From Rivularia sp. PCC 7116 (GTDB lineage Bacteria > Cyanobacteriota > Cyanobacteriia > Cyanobacteriales > Nostocaceae): a stretch of DNA of 64,000 nt. The translations under genes and the position numbers were made by a program. The notes under the pieces are model-generated. The model ran no database searches. It saw only the letters and a program-made list of their open reading frames with translations, and was not told where the DNA came from. The DNA lies in assembly GCF_000316665.1 (NCBI RefSeq), contig NC_019678.1:4092001-4156000 (forward strand), in the 5' to 3' direction. Positions 52,387-63,761 of the stretch are shown in pieces. Position 1 is the stretch's first letter. The number at the start of each line of letters is the position of its first letter.

Positions 52387-54684
52387 ATGACTATGACCAC
52401 TATTGCCCCAGAACAGGTTAACAGCATCATCAACAACCAGCATAGCGACCCTTTCAAAATACTTGGTTCCCACAAAATAGAGAAGGATGGCAAAAACGTC
52501 TGGGTTGTGCGAGCTTATTTGCCTACCGCAAGTGCTGCTTGGGTTGTTCTTCCAGAAGAGCGTAAGGAAGAACCGATGCAAAGCGTGCATGACCCTCATT
52601 TCTTTGAATGCACGGTAGATGCTGAAGAATTAGCTAACTATCAACTTAAGATTAAAGAAGAAGACCAAGAACGGGTATTCTATGACGCTTATGCTTTTAA
52701 TTCTCCCAAGCTAACAGAATTCGATTTGCACCTGTTTAATGAAGGAAATCATCACCGAATTTATGAGAAATTAGGAGCGCATTTCACTGAAATTAAAGGT
52801 GTAAAAGGCGTTTATTTTGCGGTTTGGGCACCGAATGCGCGTAATGTATCGATTTTGGGAGACTTCAACAGTTGGGATGGACGCAAGCATCAAATGCGTA
52901 AAGGTCCCACTGGAGTATGGGAGCTATTTATTCCCGGATTGGAGGTAGGAGAGCATTACAAATACGAAATCAAAAATACCGCAGGACATATTTACGAAAA
53001 ATCTGACCCCTACGGTTTTGCTCAGGAAGTTCGTCCTAAAACTGCTTCTATTGTTACTGACTTAGATGCTTATAAGTGGAATGACAGCGAATGGATGGAA
53101 AAACGCCGTCATAGCGATCCACTTTCCGAACCAATTTCAGTTTATGAACTACATTTAGGTTCGTGGTTGCACGCCGGTACTGACGAACCATCCTTACTAC
53201 CAGATGGTACATCCGAGCCTGTAGTACAGGTTTCTGAACTTAAAACTGGCGCGCGTTTTCTAACTTATCGGGAATTGGCGGCAAAACTGATTCCTTATGT
53301 TAAAGAATTAGGCTATACCCATATTGAAATGCTGCCAGTAGCCGAACATCCATTTGATGGTTCTTGGGGATATCAAGTAACTGGTTATTACGCTCCTACT
53401 TCCCGTTATGGCAGTCCTGAAGACTTTATGTACTTTGTGGATGAATGTCATAAAAACGGCATTGGCGTGCTTGTGGATTGGGTTCCCGGTCACTTTCCTA
53501 AAGATGGGCATGGTTTAGCCTTCTTTGACGGTACTCATCTTTACGAACATGCAGATCCTCGTAAGGGCGAACATAAAGAGTGGGGAACTCTAGTATTTAA
53601 TTATTCGCGTCATGAAGTACGTAATTTTCTGACAGCGAATGCTTTATTTTGGTTTGATAAATATCATATTGACGGTATTCGCGTTGATGCAGTGGCTTCA
53701 ATGCTTTATTTAGATTACTGTCGCGAACCCGGTACCTGGGTTGCAAATGAATATGGTGGTAGAGAAAATTTAGAAGCAGTAGAATTTATTCGCAGCGTAA
53801 ATCACCTCATTTTTAGTTACTTCCCCGGTTCGCTATCCATTGCAGAAGAATCTACTTCATGGCCGATGGTATCTTGGCCTACATACACCGGTGGATTGGG
53901 CTTTAACCTGAAGTGGAATATGGGTTGGATGCATGACATGCTCGATTACTTCAGCATGGACCCCTGGTTCCGTCAGTTCCACCAAAATAATCTGACTTTT
54001 AGTATGTGGTATCACCACAGCGAAAACTTTATGTTGGCGCTGTCCCATGACGAAGTGGTGCATGGTAAGAGTAATATTATCGGGAAAATGCCCGGAGATA
54101 GATGGCAGAAGTTCGCAAATGCGCGTTGTTTATTTGCCTATATGTTTGCTCATCCCGGTAAGAAAACCATGTTTATGAGCATGGAATTTGGACAGTGGAG
54201 CGAATGGAATGTTTGGGCAGATTTGGAATGGAGCTTAATGCAGTTTGAGCCACACCAACAGCTCAAAATATTCTTCCAAGATTTAAATAAACTTTACCGC
54301 AACGAACCTGCTTTATACACTCAAGACTTTGAGGAAGCAGGGTTTCAATGGATTGACTGTAGCGACAATCGTCATAGCGTAGTTTCATTTATCCGTCGCG
54401 ATAAAGATTCGGATGGTTTTGTTGTTGCTATTTGTAATTTCACCCCGCAACCCCATTCCCACTACCGCATCGGTGTACCAGAGCCTGGATTCTACACTGA
54501 ATTATTTAACAGCGATGCCCGAGAATACGGCGGTAGCAACATGGGTAATTTAGGCGGTAAGTGGACTGATAGCTGGTCAATGCACAATCAAGAACACTCC
54601 TTGGATTTATGTCTTCCACCTTTAGGAGTATTAGTTTTGAAATTGGATCGAAATAAAACTGGTGAGGTGATGGAAGAAGAGTAA
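52387..54684 (+). CDS. glgB: 1,4-alpha-glucan branching enzyme
   Basis: 765 residues, GH13. N-terminal CBM48-type domains ([32 protein letters not shown]). The catalytic barrel has [12 protein letters not shown] with Asp434, SIAEEST with the acid/base Glu at about 487, and the transition-state Asp in [11 protein letters not shown]-terminal beta domain ends [10 protein letters not shown]. It makes alpha-1,6 branches in glycogen. Full length and intact. Confidence 0.97.
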
Positions 54685-54762
54685 AAGGTAGGCTGGTTTG
54701 ATTAAGGAGAGACGTAGCGTTGGTCTGTTCCTTAAAAACTGATAGTTTTGATCGCACATTCG

Positions 54763-54783
54763 CTTGGGGTTGCAAACCCCAAG
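54763..54783. repeat. Hairpin with GGGGTTGCAAACCCC core
   Basis: CTTGGGG-TTGCAAA-CCCCAAG, a perfect 7-bp stem. The inverted form of its core, GGGGTTTGCAACCCC, occurs at 62232-62250 and 62302-62324 beyond the other end of the NACHT operon. Confidence 0.8.
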
Positions 54784-54788
54784 CTAAC

Positions 54789-54964
54789 GGGAGCATCCCA
54801 ATGCAGGCAAAAAGCCCGCAGGCTATAAGCCTGGGGCTAATACTACGAAGCCCACCTGCGTGGGCTTGGAAACTCTCATAGCTCACGCAGGTGGGCTTTG
54901 TTTTTGTAGCCGCACCCTTCTAGGGTGTCGGATAAAGTATTTATTCCTACATTGGGATGCTCCC
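54789..54964. repeat. Composite palindromic element with 15-bp terminal inverted repeats
   Basis: GGGAGCATCCCAATG (54789-54803) and its exact reverse complement CATTGGGATGCTCCC (54950-54964) enclose nested repeats: AGCCCACCTGCGTG (54849-54862) opposite CACGCAGGTGGGCT (54884-54897), and CACCCTTCTAGGGTG at about 54913. A 176-bp MITE-like structure able to fold into a cruciform. Confidence 0.8.
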
Positions 54965-54978
54965 AAGCTAACAGCGAA

Positions 54979-54996
54979 AGTCCTATAAATAGGACT
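54979..54996. repeat. AGTCCTATAAATAGGACT palindrome
   Basis: An 18-nt near-perfect palindrome. Its inverted form, AGTCCTATTTATAGGACT, lies at 62202-62219. Confidence 0.75.
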
Positions 54997-55076
54997 GGAA
55001 AACAGGTCATCAAAACTAATACAGAAAACAATGCTACGTCTCTATATTTTAGGTTTTGAAGGTAGGGTTTAATTAA

Positions 55077-58000
55077 TTATTTAGGAAACAGAATCTGCTC
55101 TACTTCGGCTGCTTTTTCTTGTAAATCCAAATCTTGATAAATTTGTAGACTTTCTGATAAAAAGTGGGTAGCAATTGACTCTGCGTCTGGCTGATTTTGT
55201 TGAGTGCGTTTCTGGTAAATTTCACCTAATAGTTTGCGTGCTGCGGCTTCTAATTTTCGGCGGTTATAGTCTTGAGAGACTTGCAAACATTCTTTGGCGA
55301 TTTCTTCGCTTTTATCAAGATTTTCTAGAGCTTCCACTTCTAAATAAGCACGAGCGATATTAAGAGCTTGTTCTGATTTTTTTATTGCTTGTCCTAATTC
55401 ATCAAAATGGGTAAAACCCTTATGGTAATACTCTTCAAATAAGAGAATTTTTTCTTGTTTTGATGAGTCGTTAGGTATCCAGCGTAAACGTTCTGAGCAG
55501 AGCAAACTGAAAACAATGTAGTCGTAAGCAAGATTTTTTATATATTCGCCTGTAGTATTTATTTTTATGGCTTGATTTATGTTTTCTTCTGCTTGTGTTA
55601 GTAAATCAAAGATTTCTCTTTGGTTTGAGGTATTTTTTGCTAATAGAATTTGAGAAGAAGTAAGTTGCCGATACCGAATGGCTACTTTTTCATTTTGACC
55701 TAACTGTTGGTACAAAATAAGGCTTTTTTGACAATACTCAATTGCTTTTTTGTAGTCTTTTGAATCTCGATAGCAATTAGCTAATAAACACCACTGACTA
55801 GCAACATCTTTATCTTGACCTAATTGTTGATAAATATCTTTACTTTGTTGGTAATAATCAATAGCTTGTTCGTATTTACACCAACTTTTATAAATCCATC
55901 CTAATAGAAAATATGTGAATGCAATATCAGCTTGATTCTCTAATTGCTGACAAATTGTTAAGACTTGATTTTGATATTCAACAGCTTGTTTGTATTTACC
56001 CCATAAGCGATAGCAATAAGCTAAGTTATTCCACCGTCTAGCAATATCTTTATCCCTGCCTAACTGTTTATAAAGTTCTTTACTTTGTTGATAGTAATCA
56101 ACAGCTTGTTCGTATTTACCCCAGTCTTGATAAATTCTTCCTAATTGATAGTAAGTTAATGCAATATCAGCTTGGTCATTTAATTGCTGACGAATTTCTA
56201 AGCATTTACTTTGATATTTGATTGCTTGTTCGTATTTACTCCATAAGCGATAGCAATCAGCTAAGTTATACCATTGACTAGCAATATGTTTATTTAGTTT
56301 TAATTGTTGATAAATATCTTTACTTTTTTGATAGCAATTAATAGCTTGTTCGTATTTACCCCAACCTTGATAAACCCATCCTAAGTGAACGTATGTTAAT
56401 GCAATATCAGCTTGTTCGTCCAATTGCTGACGAATTATTAAACACTGATTTTGAGATTCAATAGCTTGCTGATATTTACCCCATAAGCGATAGCAATAAG
56501 CTAAGTCAGACAACCGTCTAGCAATATCTTTTTCACTACCTAATTGTTGATAAATATCTTTACTTTGTTGGTGGCAATTAATAGCTTGTTCGTATTTACC
56601 CCAGTCTTTATAAATACTTCCTAGCTGATAGTATGCGAGTGCAACACTAGCTTGGTTATTTAACTGCTGACTAATTGTTAAGCATTGATTTCCACATTCA
56701 ACAGCTTGCTGATATTTACCCCATGAACGATAGCATTCACCCAGACGATGCCAGTGGTTAGCAAGATATTTATTACGACCTAATTGTTGATAAATATCTT
56801 TACTTTGTTGAAAGTAATCAACAGCTTGCTCATATTTACCCCAATCTTGGTAAATCCTTCCTAGTTTGTAGTATGTAGTAGCAATACTGGCTTGGTCATC
56901 CAACCGCTGATAAATTTCTAATTCTTTATTTTTATATTCAACAGCTTGTTCGTATTTATTCCAATCTTGATAAATCGTTCCTAATTCATAGTATGCGAAT
57001 GCAATACCGGCTTGGTCGTCTACCTGTTGACTAATTGTTAAGCATTGATTTTTACATTCAACAGCTTGCTGATATTTACCCCATGAATGATAGCATTCAC
57101 TCAGACGATACCAGTGGTTAATAACACTTTTATTTCGACCCAATTGTTGATAAATATCTTTGCTTTGTTGGTAGAAATTAACAGCTTGTTCGTATTTACC
57201 CCAATCTTCATAAATCCTTCCTAGCTGATAGTAAGCGTCAGCAATATTAATTTGGTCATTTAACTGCTGACGAATTTCTAAATCTTTATTTTGATATTCA
57301 ACAGCTTGCTCGTATTTACCCCATAAGCGATAGCAGTTACCTAGCCAATACCACTGGTTTGCAATATCTTTATCACGACCTAATTGTTGATAAAGCTCTT
57401 TACTTTGTTGGTGATAATTAATAGCTTCTTGGTATTTACCCCAACACTGATATGCTCTACCAACAATGCTTAAAATAATTGCTTCGTATTTGAGGTTACC
57501 TAATTGTTTTATTAGAGACAATGTTTTTTGATAATAGTCTAATGATTCTTCATATTTTTTGTAATCTGATTGACATTTACCCCAAGAAAGCCAGAACCAA
57601 GCACTATCTATAAATTCACTATAAATTTTTGCATTATTATAATACTGATTAGCTTTTTCATATTCTTTTTTTTCTTGATAGCAAATTGCCAATCCCCAAT
57701 CAATAAATGCTTCTAAGTTGTCATTATATTGATTTTTTATATCTTCTAAAATAGATATAGCTAAATCATGTTTATCTTTACGAATGTAAGATATTCCTGT
57801 AATAAAATCTAATGCTATTTGGTATCGTCCTTCAACTAAACTGTACTTTCTACTAGCTTCGAGAGCAGGTGTCATATCTTGACCAAGATTTTGCACAAAA
57901 CTAATAGTACAAAAAAATAAAAATGGCTCTAATCCAGTAACAAATTCTGTCGCATAATTAACTAATACTGTTGAATCACAACAAGCAACATAAAGAATGG

Positions 58001-60497
58001 CTGTTTTTGTTAGAATACGAATTTCTTCAGACAGAGTTAAATCATCAGCGAATTCTTTTAATAAATCTATGACTTCATTTTTTTTATAAAACTGTTCTAT
58101 TTTACGCAGTAATCTTAATAATTGCTTAGTCGTATCATCTCCAAAGTCATCAGTATCTATACCAAGACAGGTAATAACTAGCTTACGAATCAGCTTTTTC
58201 CTAAAAATACTATTAACTTCAACTTCTGCAATTACCTGTCCTGCAAATAGCAAATTTTTTAACTTTAATTCTACTTCCTGAGAGTTGTTTTCTGATTTAT
58301 CCTCTGCTTTTAAGTAAATAATTGTTTGCTCTTCAGATGAGGAATTTTTAATTTGTATTTCACCATGTTGTAGAGTTGGTTGATAATCTTCTAAATTCTT
58401 GAACAGTTTTTTTATTAGCTTCTTTACTTGTGTTGGAAAATGAATCCCGTAATATCCTAACGCTAATAAAATTGGTTCATTCCAGCGCGGCTCGTGAAGA
58501 TGGTTCTGGATAAGTTGTAAAATTTCATTTGGGTCATTATCTGCAATATAACGAGCTGCAAAATACTCTTCAAATGTCAGGTGCATAAAGCCATAAAACC
58601 CAGGTGTTCGTTCCACAAATAAACCCGTGGTTTCCCGTACTTTTCGCAAAAACTCTCCTACTGCTTGAAGGACGGATTCTGACTCTGGTTCATCATCATT
58701 CAATTCAGCCAGCTTTTGTGCTAAATTTTCCTCAACTTCTTGCTCACTAACTACACCAGAAGGTTTTTCTTCATGCATCCAATATGCCAAGGGTGCTAAA
58801 AGTTCTACTACTTCTGTTTCCTTTAACACTACTTTTGGTGCATCTGGTAATTTCTTACTAAGTTGCCAATCTTCCGTCAGAGTTTGCACTGCTAATTCAT
58901 AGAGTTTAACTCGACGGTTAGGAAGGCGATCGCCATTTCGGTGAATGAGTGCCAAAATAGTTAACAGTAGGGGGTTAGTTGTTAACCGCTTCACACCTTC
59001 ATTGACTTCAACTGACTGTAAAATATCTTGTACTTGCTCGTTTCCTCTGCTTTGCCATTGCTCTTCACTAGCATCTGGCTGTTGTGCTTTCTCAACTGTA
59101 TGACACCAGCGAGACAAGAATAGTTCTACCTGTTCGCTATCCATGTCTTCGATGGTAAATTCTGCAAATCTACCGCTTAGTTGTACATCGCGGTAGCCAG
59201 CAATGCGACTGGTAATTACAAATTTGTTGTTGGGAAATTCATCAACAAACTGATTAATACATTTTACGATTTGTTTGCGACTTTCTTGATCGAATACCTC
59301 ATCTAAACCATCTAGCAACATCAAACATTGTCCTTGACGCATCCTCAGTAGAAGAAATTCTGCTACCTCCTTCTGAGTTCCCATTTCTTCTTCTGTTTGA
59401 AAATGAGCTTCCCACTGACGGTAAAACTGACGTAGATATTCAAGTAAAGTTAAGTTTGGCTGCTGTTTGAGTTGCTCTGCAAAGTCAGCAATCCGAAAGA
59501 AAACTGGTAACAAAGTTTTACCTAATTCTTCTTTATCTTCGCCGACAATTACTGTTTCCCCATCATCTCTCTTTGTCTTTGCAAAATGTAATGCTAAATA
59601 ACGTAGAAGAGTAGTCTTCCCCGCACCTGGAGCGCCTAAAATTACACTATAAGGATTTTCTCGTACCGCTTGGGATAATGCAATTTTTTTGTTAACAGTT
59701 TTAGTACTAGAAACAGTTATTGAGTCTTCAATAAGTGCTTCGTAATCGTAGGCTTCATTCAAATCATCTTGACTAACATCCATCTCGTCAAATTTAACAC
59801 TTTGAGATTGCAATACACTTGCCACATTTGGTTTTGTTGTATTAGCCTCAGAAGTTTCGGTAATATGTTGTCGCCATTGTGCTTGTAGGGATACATAAAC
59901 TTGGTCAAGGAAAATATCAACTTGGCGATTTACCTGCATTACCCCACTTATTTTGAGATAAGAATTCTCAGCAATTAACCACTCTAAATAAGGATAAAGT
60001 AAGGGATTGCGTGTTTTAAATTCTACTACCTTTTCTCGCCAATCCCAAAAATCTGGCGCACGCTGACGAAATTCATCTAAAAACTGATTTTTATTTAGCC
60101 ATAAAATTAATACTAAATTTCTTCCAAATAGCTCTTCTCTACCCAAATTCAATTGTTTCATTTCTTTAACCAAGCGCGGTGTAGGTAATTGGTCAATTCC
60201 AAATGCCATCACGAATTTGCGCTCAGTTTGAGTATTCTGCTGTTTATTATCATCCAATCTATAAAGAAAATTATGAAAAGAATCTTCGCTGTAAAAAAAA
60301 TTATAAAACTCAAAACTTTCTTCAGTAGTTTCTAAAGAATCCTTCAGACTTTTAACTACTATATGCTGGGGACTAATCTCTGGTGTAATACCGAAAATAA
60401 TTGTCGTCCCACTGGAAATTTCTAATAAAGTAACTAACTTATCTAATTCTTTTTTATCGGCTTCGCTCAAAGAATAGTTAGTGTCTTGATTAAGCAT
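55077..60497 (-). CDS. NACHT-TPR STAND protein
   Basis: 1806 residues. Residues 20-180 form an N-terminal domain with a P-loop-like position lacking its motif (TTIIFGITPEIS) followed by NLVLILWLNKNQF, perhaps an inactive STAND-type domain. NACHT NTPase at about 280-560: Walker A GAPGAGKTT (288-296), Walker B LLDGLDE (394-400), sensor VITSRIAGY, winged-helix-like region to about 650 with GFMHLTFEEYFAARYIAD at about 645. A linker region follows to about 930. About 17 TPR-like units of exactly 40 residues cover about 930-1600, and a helical C-terminus. STAND proteins act as switches that assemble on sensing a trigger. The gene starts 53 bp after a P-loop ATPase gene, on the same strand. Confidence 0.88.
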   Translation of the reverse strand: MLNQDTNYSLSEADKKELDKLVTLLEISSGTTIIFGITPEISPQHIVVKSLKDSLETTEESFEFYNFFYSEDSFHNFLYRLDDNKQQNTQTERKFVMAFGIDQLPTPRLVKEMKQLNLGREELFGRNLVLILWLNKNQFLDEFRQRAPDFWDWREKVVEFKTRNPLLYPYLEWLIAENSYLKISGVMQVNRQVDIFLDQVYVSLQAQWRQHITETSEANTTKPNVASVLQSQSVKFDEMDVSQDDLNEAYDYEALIEDSITVSSTKTVNKKIALSQAVRENPYSVILGAPGAGKTTLLRYLALHFAKTKRDDGETVIVGEDKEELGKTLLPVFFRIADFAEQLKQQPNLTLLEYLRQFYRQWEAHFQTEEEMGTQKEVAEFLLLRMRQGQCLMLLDGLDEVFDQESRKQIVKCINQFVDEFPNNKFVITSRIAGYRDVQLSGRFAEFTIEDMDSEQVELFLSRWCHTVEKAQQPDASEEQWQSRGNEQVQDILQSVEVNEGVKRLTTNPLLLTILALIHRNGDRLPNRRVKLYELAVQTLTEDWQLSKKLPDAPKVVLKETEVVELLAPLAYWMHEEKPSGVVSEQEVEENLAQKLAELNDDEPESESVLQAVGEFLRKVRETTGLFVERTPGFYGFMHLTFEEYFAARYIADNDPNEILQLIQNHLHEPRWNEPILLALGYYGIHFPTQVKKLIKKLFKNLEDYQPTLQHGEIQIKNSSSEEQTIIYLKAEDKSENNSQEVELKLKNLLFAGQVIAEVEVNSIFRKKLIRKLVITCLGIDTDDFGDDTTKQLLRLLRKIEQFYKKNEVIDLLKEFADDLTLSEEIRILTKTAILYVACCDSTVLVNYATEFVTGLEPFLFFCTISFVQNLGQDMTPALEASRKYSLVEGRYQIALDFITGISYIRKDKHDLAISILEDIKNQYNDNLEAFIDWGLAICYQEKKEYEKANQYYNNAKIYSEFIDSAWFWLSWGKCQSDYKKYEESLDYYQKTLSLIKQLGNLKYEAIILSIVGRAYQCWGKYQEAINYHQQSKELYQQLGRDKDIANQWYWLGNCYRLWGKYEQAVEYQNKDLEIRQQLNDQINIADAYYQLGRIYEDWGKYEQAVNFYQQSKDIYQQLGRNKSVINHWYRLSECYHSWGKYQQAVECKNQCLTISQQVDDQAGIAFAYYELGTIYQDWNKYEQAVEYKNKELEIYQRLDDQASIATTYYKLGRIYQDWGKYEQAVDYFQQSKDIYQQLGRNKYLANHWHRLGECYRSWGKYQQAVECGNQCLTISQQLNNQASVALAYYQLGSIYKDWGKYEQAINCHQQSKDIYQQLGSEKDIARRLSDLAYCYRLWGKYQQAIESQNQCLIIRQQLDEQADIALTYVHLGWVYQGWGKYEQAINCYQKSKDIYQQLKLNKHIASQWYNLADCYRLWSKYEQAIKYQSKCLEIRQQLNDQADIALTYYQLGRIYQDWGKYEQAVDYYQQSKELYKQLGRDKDIARRWNNLAYCYRLWGKYKQAVEYQNQVLTICQQLENQADIAFTYFLLGWIYKSWCKYEQAIDYYQQSKDIYQQLGQDKDVASQWCLLANCYRDSKDYKKAIEYCQKSLILYQQLGQNEKVAIRYRQLTSSQILLAKNTSNQREIFDLLTQAEENINQAIKINTTGEYIKNLAYDYIVFSLLCSERLRWIPNDSSKQEKILLFEEYYHKGFTHFDELGQAIKKSEQALNIARAYLEVEALENLDKSEEIAKECLQVSQDYNRRKLEAAARKLLGEIYQKRTQQNQPDAESIATHFLSESLQIYQDLDLQEKAAEVEQILFPK
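55700..57720 (-). repeat. Tandem 120-bp TPR-coding repeats in strict phase
   Basis: The word GTATTTACCCCA or a close form recurs at 55871, 55991, 56111 and then every 120 bp to 57431, without any indel in between. Divergent units lie in phase at 55751, 57551 and 57671. Odd and even units differ (YRLWGKYQQAVE versus YQDWGKYEQAVDYYQQSKDI), giving a 240-bp higher-order unit. Confidence 0.9.
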
Positions 60498-60550
60498 AAG
60501 TCAACCAGATAAAGTTAACATTGATAGATAAAATGAAAATGAAAAAGTTT

Positions 60551-61855
60551 TTATGATATATTATTTGTAGCTTGCCAACGCTGTAAATCCTCCATCAAAA
60601 TAGGATTAATATCAAACCAAGATTCCTGCTTTGAATTGTAATAACCTAAAACTAATTTATTTTGCAAAAGTTCGTCAGAAATAATAAATTCGCCTTTATT
60701 AGGTAATTTATGAGTTTTAGTAGTTAACTTCCCAGTTTTGTGTATAGACTCAAGCTCCGGATAGTGGTAGTCACTTAAGTTATACTCTCGACGTACTTCT
60801 TGTACTGCTTCTTGTGCAGTATCTAAGTCTATAAATGAAAGTTTGTTTCGCAATCCAATTTCACAGGTAGTACGTGCAAGCCTAACTAAATCTCGCATCA
60901 CACCACCACTTTTTTCACAAATTAATTCCAAAGCATCGGGATTAAATAAACCTTTATAACTATCACCCAACTTAACAAGACGTGCATTTATTACTTTGAT
61001 TAAAATTTCTCGACCATGTTGATTGGGATTATTAGTAGGACATAAATTATCATCAGATTCAAATACTGGAGGATTATTCAAATCCAAGCATTTTTGAAAA
61101 CTTTCCATCGGTTGACGGAAACTTGGAGAATATCGCAAAGAAATAGGAATCGAATAGACAATATGGGATTTTAATTCTACTAATAGTGGACTAGAAAACA
61201 TCTCCAAAGCAGTTACTTGGTCGTGTCTATCTAAACCATCAACAATGATTAATAGCCTTTGTTCTCTTTCCTCTTCCGCAGCCTTGATAATATCATTAAC
61301 TCTATCAATAATCTCGCTCAATAAAGGACGAACATTAAGAGTTTTATTTACTTCTCTAGTTAAACCACGCTTGAGAACTAATCCTAATTTGGTCAGAAAT
61401 TCTGGAAATTGCAAACCATCAGTTTCACTATCTTTATCTTGATAAACTACAGTTTTTAGACTATCTTGCAGAGCATTTAATAATTCATCTTTTCTATTAG
61501 ATAGCCAATTAGATTGAATGGCTTGACGTGCAATTTCTAAACCAATTAAAACTATCACTTCCGCATAGCCAATATTGTATCTATCTAAAGCAGTTTGCGT
61601 ATCAATCCATATAACAGTGTAAAAATCAGCTACTTTTTGTTGCAACCGTCGCAACTCAGTAGTTTTTCCCCCACCCCGATGACCAGCCAATAAAAATTTT
61701 GCTGGATCGTCTTCCATTTCCAGCAAACTAACGAGCTTATTTACGGGACTGTTATCTCTTTGAACGTAAAAATTTCTCAGGTCTTCAGCCGTTACCAGAG
61801 GTTCTTCTGGTTTAAATAGCTGGTAAGCATTTCGCCAAAATTTTGTATTACTCAT
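60551..61855 (-). CDS. P-loop ATPase, partner of the NACHT-TPR protein
   Basis: 434 residues. Walker A AGHRGGGKTTEL with the Lys at 64, Walker B LLIIVDGLDR (201-210, Asp206/Asp209), arginine and sensor-type residues at VYSIPISLRYSP. The C-terminal part (about 300-434) is winged-helix-like and includes VMRDLVRLARTTCEIG. It resembles ORC/Cdc6-like or STAND-type AAA ATPases of unknown function. It is transcribed first in a two-gene operon with the NACHT-TPR gene. Start is ATG 61855; no obvious ribosome-binding site. Confidence 0.85.
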   Translation of the reverse strand: MSNTKFWRNAYQLFKPEEPLVTAEDLRNFYVQRDNSPVNKLVSLLEMEDDPAKFLLAGHRGGGKTTELRRLQQKVADFYTVIWIDTQTALDRYNIGYAEVIVLIGLEIARQAIQSNWLSNRKDELLNALQDSLKTVVYQDKDSETDGLQFPEFLTKLGLVLKRGLTREVNKTLNVRPLLSEIIDRVNDIIKAAEEEREQRLLIIVDGLDRHDQVTALEMFSSPLLVELKSHIVYSIPISLRYSPSFRQPMESFQKCLDLNNPPVFESDDNLCPTNNPNQHGREILIKVINARLVKLGDSYKGLFNPDALELICEKSGGVMRDLVRLARTTCEIGLRNKLSFIDLDTAQEAVQEVRREYNLSDYHYPELESIHKTGKLTTKTHKLPNKGEFIISDELLQNKLVLGYYNSKQESWFDINPILMEDLQRWQATNNIS

Positions 61856-62201
61856 ACTGACAATATTTAATCAAAATACTTGATTTAAAGTATTAAACGT
61901 TGCTTTATAGAATCATAAAGTATAATAATTTTTTTAATAGACTTATGTAACATAAAATACTTGAAGTAAAACTTTTGTCAGTGATGAATTATTAATACTA
62001 ATAAAATATACCCAAAACTTAATTTACCTGCATTTTCAACAATTCTTAATTTAAATGCAAATATTCATTACGATTACATGGAATACTAGTCCTATTTATC
62101 TGATATCTTGAACCAATATCAATTAGCGCTCAAAATCGCCTAGGATTGAAAATCCCAGGCTAATAGCTCAAGTCTACTTAAGTAGACTGAAAGTCTTTCC
62201 C
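61856..62201. other. Intergenic region upstream of the ATPase gene
   Basis: AT-rich stretch that should contain the operon promoter (minus strand) plus the first part of the hairpin cluster: AAGTCTACTTAAGTAGACT-type palindrome at about 62170-62189. No ORF. Confidence 0.45.
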
Positions 62202-62324
62202 AGTCCTATTTATAGGACTTTTTCTATGAGACGGGGGTTTGCAACCCCCGGCGGTGTTGAGAATGGTGCAAGATGTCAGATTTATAGGACTTGTGCTATC
62301 AGACTGGGGTTTGCAACCCCAGTC
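62202..62324. repeat. Hairpin cluster matching the left flank in inverted form
   Basis: AGTCCTATTTATAGGACT (62202-62219), CGGGGGTTTGCAACCCCCG (62232-62250) and GACTGGGG-TTTGCAA-CCCCAGTC (62302-62324). The first and the cores of the others are the reverse complements of the palindromes at 54979 and 54763. Confidence 0.8.
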
Positions 62325-62327
62325 GGG

Positions 62328-63416
62328 CTATGATAATAACCCCTCAAAAAAATCAACTACCGTCTTCGCAATCACTTCATTCCCATCAATTGCAATAGCT
62401 TCTTGACAACGAGGTGCTTCCAATGGCTGTTTCAAAAACTCCCAAGAACTTTCAAATAATTCGGCGGGAGTTAGTATTTGATGATAGTTGTAATTTTTTA
62501 TTCCTTCTAAAAGAAAAGTTGCTTCTGCAAAATTATCTCTAGTAACTGAAATAATTGGCACTCCTAATTTAGTTGCTTCTGCAAAAGTACCGAATCCGGG
62601 TTTGGAAACTATTTTCCCGCAAACTGGCATGAAATCAACGGGACGGATATGTATATCATTTACTTTAATTAAATTTGGTAAATCTGGTGCCGATTTATCA
62701 AATGTGATAAATTGCCAGTCTGGAAAATTAACTAAATTTTGGTAAGGTATTTGCTGTAAACCCAAGCCGCCGAAGGTAAGCAATATAGTCTTTTCGCGGG
62801 GTGCGGTAATATTCCACTTAGATTTAATTTCTTCGGCATCAATAAAAGGAGAACCACCAATTAAACCGATATCAGTTATGTTATTAAATGCCTGCATCGG
62901 TTCGTGGAAAGGAAGACGAAACAGGCGATCGCACTTTGAATAACATTCGCCAATCCAGTCAGATATGTCAATAAAATCACCACCCCAATCTCTGTAAATA
63001 AAATCCCAACCAAAGTTACTAATTGCCCAACAGGGGACATTTGCAGCTTTGCCAATATCTGCGGCTAAGAAAGGAATATCTGCCAAAATTAAATTAACGT
63101 GATTCTGATGAATAAAATCAACTTCAGAAGCGATGATAGAAGATTGCTTTTTCTTTATTTTTAATAATTTGTCTAAGGTAGCTTGCTTATCCATACTGAA
63201 ACTATCAGCTTGGATAACTCCCACATCGTAAGCACGGGGGCGATGGATAAAATCACCTTTGATATAGCATTCCAACAACCAACGCGGTGCTGCTGTCACC
63301 ATAATTAGCAAGGCTTCCGGACATAACTTTTGAATAGTCGCCGCTACAGAAGCACTACGAGTAGCATGTCCGAAACCATGACTTGTAATTGCAATATATA
63401 TAATAGGACGTTGCAT
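62328..63416 (-). CDS. MurG-like glycosyltransferase family protein
   Basis: 362 residues from ATG 63416 (MQRPIIYIAITSHGFGHATR); an in-frame ATG at 63440 lies inside a CCCAATTCCC tract and is less likely. GT-B fold: N-terminal SHGFGHATR loop, C-terminal LLTFGGLGL and VSKPGFGTFAEATKLGVPII, which bind the nucleotide sugar as in MurG. It differs clearly from MurG elsewhere, so the acceptor is unknown. The N-terminal type also occurs fused to sugar kinases. Confidence 0.82.
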   Translation of the reverse strand: MQRPIIYIAITSHGFGHATRSASVAATIQKLCPEALLIMVTAAPRWLLECYIKGDFIHRPRAYDVGVIQADSFSMDKQATLDKLLKIKKKQSSIIASEVDFIHQNHVNLILADIPFLAADIGKAANVPCWAISNFGWDFIYRDWGGDFIDISDWIGECYSKCDRLFRLPFHEPMQAFNNITDIGLIGGSPFIDAEEIKSKWNITAPREKTILLTFGGLGLQQIPYQNLVNFPDWQFITFDKSAPDLPNLIKVNDIHIRPVDFMPVCGKIVSKPGFGTFAEATKLGVPIISVTRDNFAEATFLLEGIKNYNYHQILTPAELFESSWEFLKQPLEAPRCQEAIAIDGNEVIAKTVVDFFEGLLS

Positions 63417-63761
63417 ATTTGAAAATAGGGAATTGGGCATTGAGCATTGGGAATAGCAATTAATTATTTGTTATTTCTTCTATTCCTTTTACATTTAACA
63501 CTTTATATGTTTTGGTATAATTTCGCATCTCAACTTATGTGGCGGAGTACTAGTACTTCACCACATTAATTGTGCTAGGTTAGGAAGTCGCTCCGTAGGT
63601 TGGGTGAAGCGAAGCGCAACCCAACACTAGTGGTGCTTTTCATTTATTTTGACGGATTGTAGAGACGTAGCAATGCTACGTCTCCCGACGTTAGGGAGAA
63701 AACGAACCCATCAAAATTAATGAAATAGAACACTAGTAACCTATGCCCAATTCCCAATTTT
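63417..63761. other. Intergenic region rich in palindromic repeats
   Basis: CCCAATTCCC-type tract at 63423-63452; palindrome AGTACTAGTACT at 63546-63557 within a longer imperfect one (63539-63564); GTTGGGT...ACCCAAC at 63599-63625; GAGACGTAGCA-A-TGCTACGTCTC at 63662-63684; another tract at 63740-63770. No gene. Confidence 0.6.

Follow-up and report, generated by a model that had tools for sequence, protein, structure and literature searches.

Two neighbouring genes of the cyanobacterium Rivularia sp. PCC 7116 raise the question of which of their parts belong together and what the pair does. They lie in a stretch of 64,000 nucleotides (NC_019678.1, positions 4,092,001 to 4,156,000; hereafter the window) of the 8.7 Mb host genome. 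A first-pass annotation had described them, from the letters of the window, as a co-directional operon of a P-loop ATPase (gene A) and a giant NACHT-TPR protein (gene B) with a possible role in defence. Judging from sequence comparison, the unit conserved across genomes is the ATPase together with a dead AAA+ domain at the N-terminus of gene B (NT), not the ATPase together with NACHT.

The gene pair is real and was confirmed as annotated: both open reading frames (ORFs) were intact, on the same strand and separated by a gap of 53 bp, and the Walker motifs were found in both translations. Those of gene A are GHRGGGKTT and LLIIVDGLD, the latter including D206; in gene B, GAPGAGKTT begins at residue 288 and LLDGLDE follows downstream. 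The features of the pair are:

60551..61855, reverse strand: gene A, ORC/STAND-like AAA+ ATPase, 434 aa (ORF and motifs)
61658..61684, reverse strand: Walker A of gene A, GHRGGGKTT, residues 58-66 (translation and alignment)
55077..60497, reverse strand: gene B, NT-NACHT-TPR protein, 1,806 aa (ORF and Pfam)
60003..60497, reverse strand: NT domain of gene B, residues 1-165, modelled as AAA+-like but lacking Walker A; paired with gene A (structure model)
59100..59648, reverse strand: NACHT nucleoside triphosphatase (NTPase) domain of gene B, residues 284-466, Walker motifs intact (Pfam NACHT, E=1.3e-10)
55830..57509, reverse strand: TPR array of gene B, 14 units of exactly 40 residues, residues 997-1556 (Pfam and repeat scoring)

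Linkage of the ATPase and the N-terminal domain

Relatives of gene A were found in at least 78 of 386 genomes of the phylum by a single-sequence search. The window's own clade (clade I, at least 52% identity) was present in at least 8 of the 386, with one copy split by a stop, and the other rows listed showed 24-31% identity. These counts are lower bounds, since up to four candidates per genome were scored in this search and up to seven in a further one. In the first 30 loci, the downstream gene matched residues 1-225 of gene B in 26. A NACHT match was seen only in the seven clade-I loci that reach it; the loci of that set end about 1.5 kb past the ATPase. Longer stretches outside clade I carried gene B proteins with NT and TPR and no match to the window's NACHT, which makes NACHT one of several middle modules.

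Linkage was then scored in 80 named loci, the best 80 of 424 confirmed, selected by their ATPase. They derive from cyanobacteria, Anaerolineae and other Chloroflexi, an acidobacterium, planctomycetes, a deltaproteobacterium, Nitrospinota, gammaproteobacteria and archaea; the archaeal and several other loci are metagenome-assembled contigs, in which misbinning is possible. NT matches were found in 73 of the 2,475 ORFs, one in each of 73 loci, and all 73 lay downstream of the ATPase on the same strand. The gap between the two was within -70 to +500 bp in 71 loci, 1,105 bp in one and a 99-bp overlap in one. Of the seven loci without NT, four stop within 140 bp past the ATPase and one stops 376 bp past it, and in the other two the ATPase itself is broken; in the locus ending at 376 bp, a 133-aa ORF fragment matched a second NT profile.

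Because these loci were picked by ATPase, NT without ATPase is invisible among them, and 21 relatives were therefore searched with both profiles. Both parts were present in 19 of the 21, and NT lay within 1.7 kb downstream for 55 of 64 ATPase matches. Among the nine unpaired ATPase matches, five were within 140 bases of a contig end, one was a fragment and three were inside contigs (one of them partial). The annotation had held that its reading would fail if the two genes were rarely neighbours elsewhere; they are frequent neighbours in both sets. Its pairing of an ATPase with a NACHT protein stands in part: the neighbourhood extends far beyond this genome, but the constant partner is NT, and NACHT is only one module.

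Partner distance matrices were compared over 107 pairs (restricted to ATPases of 380 aa or more and NT ORFs of 180 aa or more, with identical ATPases dropped), with the contribution of shared ancestry left in. The Pearson correlation was 0.97 and the Spearman 0.60, and the best of 1,000 Pearson permutations reached 0.15. This covariation shows shared inheritance rather than contact. It also bears on whether the operon encodes two independent products, gene B being an ordinary bNACHT-type antiphage protein and gene A serving a separate purpose. The NACHT region does resemble that of EruA, and the ATPase occurs without NT in a fusion on plasmid p057_J (below), but linkage tracks NT rather than NACHT across phyla and the partner distances co-vary, making two independent products distinctly unlikely.

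Domains of the two proteins

Gene A is predicted to be an active ORC/STAND-like AAA+ ATPase. G58, H59, G61, G63 and K64 were invariant in all 53 rows of the ATPase alignment, the window's own among them. Its top structural matches were ORC and TnsC, with a plant resistosome and CED-4 scoring nearly as high, and its Foldseek rows included the RdrA ring and Apaf-1. The structural match spans the ATPase, consistent with membership of the ORC-like AAA+ proteins, and the C-terminus is presumably a winged-helix-like region, by analogy with the ORC and STAND matches. Gene A also passed the Pfam gathering score of KAP_NTPase (PF07693; 25.7 against 20 bits), a family matched by 43 of the 53 rows at E<=0.01; KAP NTPases carry a transmembrane insertion within the P-loop domain. 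Pfam DAP3 was matched by 20 of the 53 (best 3.7e-6). A PDB sequence search with the ATPase profile returned weak generic P-loop chains only, and the PADLOC match of the window's ATPase, PDC-S20 at 0.0063, was generic.

In the structure model, residues ~7-164 of gene B adopt an AAA+-like fold in which Walker A is missing. The annotation had suspected an inactive nucleotide-binding domain here and had proposed structure prediction as the check; both the model and the structural matches support the suspicion. The Foldseek matches of NT were AAA+ proteins, with ORC, clamp-loader subunits, Sir3 and Rif2 among the best rows, and in none of 114 NT proteins did the NT domain contain a Walker A. With the structural match present and Walker A lost, NT is modelled as an AAA+-fold domain whose nucleotide-binding loop has been lost. 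Clamp-loader subunits, Sir3 and Rif2 are themselves inactive AAA+ proteins; NT differs from them in its length of ~165 residues and in its fusion to receptor modules. A PDB search with the NT profile gave nearly only TPR chains, picked up by the alignment's TPR tail; the evidence for the fold is therefore the structure model. Across residues 1-225 of gene B no Pfam family passed its threshold, and hence no known N-terminal effector (nuclease, protease, TIR and the like) was recognised.

These folds bring in a further possibility, that gene A is a DNA-loading ATPase of the TnsC kind, paired with an inactive subunit like those of clamp loaders, and works on DNA in target choice or in plasmid or element maintenance. 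ORC and TnsC head the matches of gene A, and NT matches ORC and clamp-loader subunits. Yet CED-4 and the resistosome score nearly as high for gene A, and gene B carries protein-binding repeats, NACHT, nSTAND1 or CHAT. Transposases near some plasmid copies (IS4 or IS5 annotations) were outside the pair, with no systematic search made for linked transposases. We consider a DNA-loading role highly improbable.

Gene B residues 377-653 matched NCBIfam EruA at 3.6e-14, but with 51.9 bits against a cut-off of 1000. PADLOC matches of gene B were a TPR model, PDC-S39 in the TPR region and mad8 (2.6e-6) in the NACHT region, all generic; no Avs model was among the PADLOC matches listed at E<=1. The best TPR family reached E=4.7e-110 (Pfam). 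The 40-residue array of the annotation was borne out: it has 14 or 15 units by the scoring used, with an anchor spacing of exactly 40 residues in 14 of 14. Alternate units were more alike than neighbouring units (mean identity 0.56 vs 0.41), and the repeat is therefore an 80-residue double unit.

Repeat number turns over among relatives. Fifteen of 18 clade-I proteins gave arrays that scored, with 9-27 units each, and at least one of these is cut by a contig end. Loci L031 and L032 were 94.1% identical over residues 1-700, yet had 13 and 15 units; over residues 951-1690 identity was 85.5%, with gaps there due in part to the fixed cut. A codon comparison limited to unit pairs with at least 60% identity (740 pairs, 13 genes) gave a ratio of nonsynonymous to synonymous differences (pN/pS) of 0.39, with the highest values at positions 8, 11, 15 and 18, spaced like one helix face. 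Positive selection on the TPR units was considered and is unsupported beyond one position.

Several modules follow NT: TPR alone, NACHT-TPR as in the window, nSTAND1 with or without WD40, and CHAT. The 114 NT proteins comprised 18 with a window-like NACHT, 14 with nSTAND1 (8 with WD40) and one with CHAT, the rest having TPR or no recognised module; 35 were labelled NT only, many of these with TPR by eye. The labels come from simple patterns applied to distinct sequences, contig-cut proteins included, with Pfam checks on eight. Three further pairs in the window's own genome are all nSTAND1-type.

Several variants were observed. An NT-TPR-CHAT protein, CHAT being a caspase-like protease domain, is encoded downstream of the ATPase at L044:6557-9970 (and L135:11279-14692). 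Two tandem ATPases precede one NT protein in two genomes (L238:3370-10670, L241:7368-10783). Some clade-I copies look broken: L112 has a split ATPase, and gene B of L119 and of L120 is apparently divided into two. The sequences of L112 and L120 were assembled from metagenomes, so errors of assembly are possible there.

Solo NT frames of ~156-212 aa were also seen, 18 of them in 16 of the 21 relatives (for example G000:C1 5749428-5749880; L260:4701-5336). They make up 18 of 33 unpaired NT matches, three with a stop inside the match. Twelve solo-NT regions of 8-11 kb contained no ATPase of the gene A family, and their neighbours differed save among close relatives. Solo NT proteins are possible decoys or regulators.

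A candidate two-protein switch

What might such a pair do? We give a probability of roughly one half to the reading that it is a two-protein AAA+/STAND switch of a conflict system, immune or cell-death, in which NT docks gene B onto gene A. Computation supplies the motifs, the predicted NT fold, the linkage, the modular C-termini, the insertion and the differing repeat numbers; the docking itself, as well as oligomerisation, trigger, output and any part in defence, is inferred. Gene B would be an NLR-like receptor, with NT as adaptor, the central NACHT as switch and the C-terminal TPR array as sensor, and NT would dock it on gene A as a non-hydrolysing subunit. The bacterial clamp loader holds inactive subunits and offers a parallel for such docking. 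A trigger would first be bound by the TPR array; nucleotide exchange and oligomerisation of NACHT would follow; the clustered NT domains would then assemble or activate gene A rings, and gene A would produce the output. The output is the least certain step of this scheme. Gene A itself may be the effector, because neither protein has a recognised toxic enzyme, and its place in a VMAP locus suggests the same.

If the switch reading is true, repeat-bearing cyanobacterial STAND proteins could share one output through a separate AAA+ ATPase and a dead AAA+ adaptor. NT, which has no Pfam match, is a domain with a fixed partner, and the residues of interest are clear (R120, D149 and R154 of NT; K64 of gene A). 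A wider reading is tentative, with the odds leaning against it: NT would be a general prokaryotic adaptor, a dead AAA+ module plugging varied receptors (NACHT-TPR, nSTAND1-WD40, TPR-CHAT, plain TPR) onto a single family of ORC-like ATPases, and solo NT proteins would be decoys or brakes. Death-fold adaptors in animal inflammasomes are a parallel for such an adaptor, and CARD-only proteins for solo NT.

Conflict-type neighbours were seen on plasmids, described here as individual neighbourhoods, not set against a control count. Seven plasmid records carried an ATPase relative, with NT downstream in six. On an Acaryochloris conjugative plasmid the pair is near TIR, NB-ARC and CHAT genes. On another plasmid two recombinases enclose the pair together with HicAB, and a NACHT gene lies just beyond them. 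A DNA cytosine methyltransferase is within 8 kb at loci H5 and H6, H5 also having a CHAT gene; H4 and H7 have few such genes. A tblastn search of plasmids with the window NT at 1e-5 found none, although the profile does find distant NT on plasmids. At H4 (L250:9247-9708, Nostoc sp. UHCC 0302 plasmid unnamed6), the ATPase is partnered by nothing more than a 153-aa NT domain.

The VMAP locus is on Nostoc sp. C057 plasmid p057_J (L246:6693-11866). There a clade-I ATPase, 71.5% identical, is fused behind a SAV_2336 N-terminal domain (1.1e-161), and the fusion adjoins a MoxR-annotated gene and a VMAP protein (VMAP-C 1.1e-33, VMAP-M1 1.6e-18). We read the SAV_2336 protein as the vWA component, even though a Pfam scan at 1e-3 detected no vWA domain there. 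In the available parts of PMC7159879 and PMC8195603, VMAP ternary systems have variable effectors, STAND NTPases among them, behind a vWA component. The p057_J arrangement resembles the ternary conflict system in the available part of PMC7159879, whereas the window has NT-NACHT-TPR instead, and no MoxR, vWA or VMAP genes were seen by eye among the window ORFs located at 46-64 kb, where no profile search was made. The swapped ATPase would connect NLR-like receptors with conflict systems of the VMAP-MoxR type.

Among published ideas the nSTAND2 operon (Kaur et al. 2021, PMC8195603) comes closest. In it, one active and one eroded STAND form a mobile unit for which a hetero-ring was suggested; the eroded partner has variable modules, GT4 or HEPN being the commonest. 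The pair may belong to this two-gene counter-invader system, with only its NACHT-TPR version new. Section 15 of PMC8195603 gives this layout of two adjacent genes, one with eroded NTP-binding motifs and variable modules, and calls the operon mobile. It also places the family near Dap3, and DAP3 is the Pfam family matched by 20 of the 53 ATPase rows. Compared by published description only, the modules differ, being TPR, NACHT-TPR, nSTAND1(-WD40) and CHAT in the window family. GT4 and HEPN, which as the commonest modules need not occur in all members, were not among the families listed for eight gene B proteins (Pfam, 1e-6; three of the lists stop at 25 families), nor among the 25 Pfam families shown for the window's gene B. 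The pair seems to be a variant, with a NACHT-TPR partner, of an already known type of two-gene STAND system, and that its core is nSTAND2 itself is unlikely. Were it so, the NACHT-TPR, nSTAND1-WD40 and CHAT architectures would still be additions, as would the loci in archaeal assemblies. The pair was not found described in the open-access literature, a scope outside which subscription papers and supplements fall; within that literature, a search for EruA gave nothing and one for Npun2340 led only to PMC8195603.

Other known systems share parts of the layout. bNACHT, EruA and Avs proteins consist of an N-terminal module, a STAND NTPase and a C-terminal repeat sensor. Gene B has the same order, with Walker A and B intact in NACHT and TPR as the sensor. 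It differs in that its N-terminal module is a predicted dead AAA+ domain paired with a second gene, with no known effector, and in lying far under the EruA cut-off and lacking an Avs match. As summarised in the available part of PMC9218822 (from Dunin-Horkawicz 2014), the WRAP operon of Nostoc punctiforme couples a STAND-WD40 gene to a TIR-STAND gene; like the pair, it joins two cyanobacterial STAND genes, one with recently amplified repeats, but gene A has no TIR. Fungal NLRs with internally conserved TPR, WD or ANK repeats, according to the available part of Dyrka et al. 2014 (PMC4986451), show signs of positive selection at three TPR positions. They share with the window family NACHT, internally similar TPR repeats and variable repeat number.

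Several observations weigh against the switch reading. Diversifying selection on the TPR units is weak at best, because pN/pS is 0.39 and exceeds 1 at only one of 40 positions (position 11; simple count), unlike the fungal case. R154, a possible arginine finger, is present in only 52 of 64 NT rows. PADLOC matches of the ATPases are generic: VakA was matched by 24 of 53 rows (best 3.2e-8), and the window's own ATPase had none at 1e-3. A search of 50,697 phage records with the ATPase gave no match at 1e-5, and 95 pattern-matching stretches in viral contigs gave none confirmed. No NT was found in the 24 kb read around the p057_J fusion, so the ATPase can exist without an NT partner. ATPases inside contigs also lack NT at G039:C110 and G229:C167 (full) and at G229:C273 (partial), whether plasmid or chromosomal. 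The converse linkage is loose: in the 21 relatives 54 of 87 NT matches were paired and 33 unpaired, a number inflated by contig breaks, and five of 20 regions picked for variety (L095, L096, L100, L105, L108) contained an NT protein but no ATPase. Finally, five of 14 other clade-I loci (L116, L117, L118, L119, L126) share look-alike upstream genes, judged by length and, for L116 and L118, by sequence; the pair therefore has a settled place in some Nostocales, which speaks against its moving freely.

Genomic setting of the window's copy

The pair lies between glgB (52387-54684) and a glycosyltransferase-like gene (62328-63440), both names being readings of ORFs. The distance between these genes is 585 and 598 bp in two congeners and 7,649 bp in the window. 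Alignment to the congeners resumes at ~54722 and ~62365, with an extra match of 44-46 bp at 55029-55074. Two stretches are specific to the window:

55075..62364, no strand: approximate extent of the sequence that two congeners lack at this site, with glgB on one side and the glycosyltransferase-like gene on the other
~54723-55028: second, smaller window-specific stretch

By this alignment, the window's pair is an insertion relative to the two congeners. The other five congeners were uninformative, having the two flank genes on different contigs or 24 kb apart. Within the genus, two of the eight genomes carried clade I, one of them as a fragment at a contig end, and all eight had ATPase relatives. 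The annotation had named a conserved housekeeping context as a finding that would count against it; the window's flank genes (ORFs from 45 kb on) had no match at E<=1e-10 in the 14 other clade-I loci.

This setting bears on whether the pair is instead a regulatory or developmental signalling device, an ATP-driven TPR regulator of filamentous cyanobacteria rather than a defence system. Many genomes carry several related pairs each, with ATPase relatives throughout the genus and both parts in nearly all of the 21 relatives; solo NT is near-universal in those relatives, and the best matches of the ATPase are the DNA-binding ORC and TnsC. But the window's clade is patchy, inserted relative to two congeners and broken in some loci, its flank genes are unmatched in the other clade-I loci, and some plasmid pairs lie near conflict-type genes. 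A regulatory role is thus unlikely.

Neither the Rfam scan nor the tRNA scan of the window found anything, and promoter-like or terminator-like sites in it showed no excess over shuffles. Short palindromes (AGTCCTATAAATAGGACT-like) and GGGGTTTGCAACCCC-like repeats, at 54740-55000 and 62170-62330, flank the insertion and are perhaps a small dispersed repeat at its boundaries.

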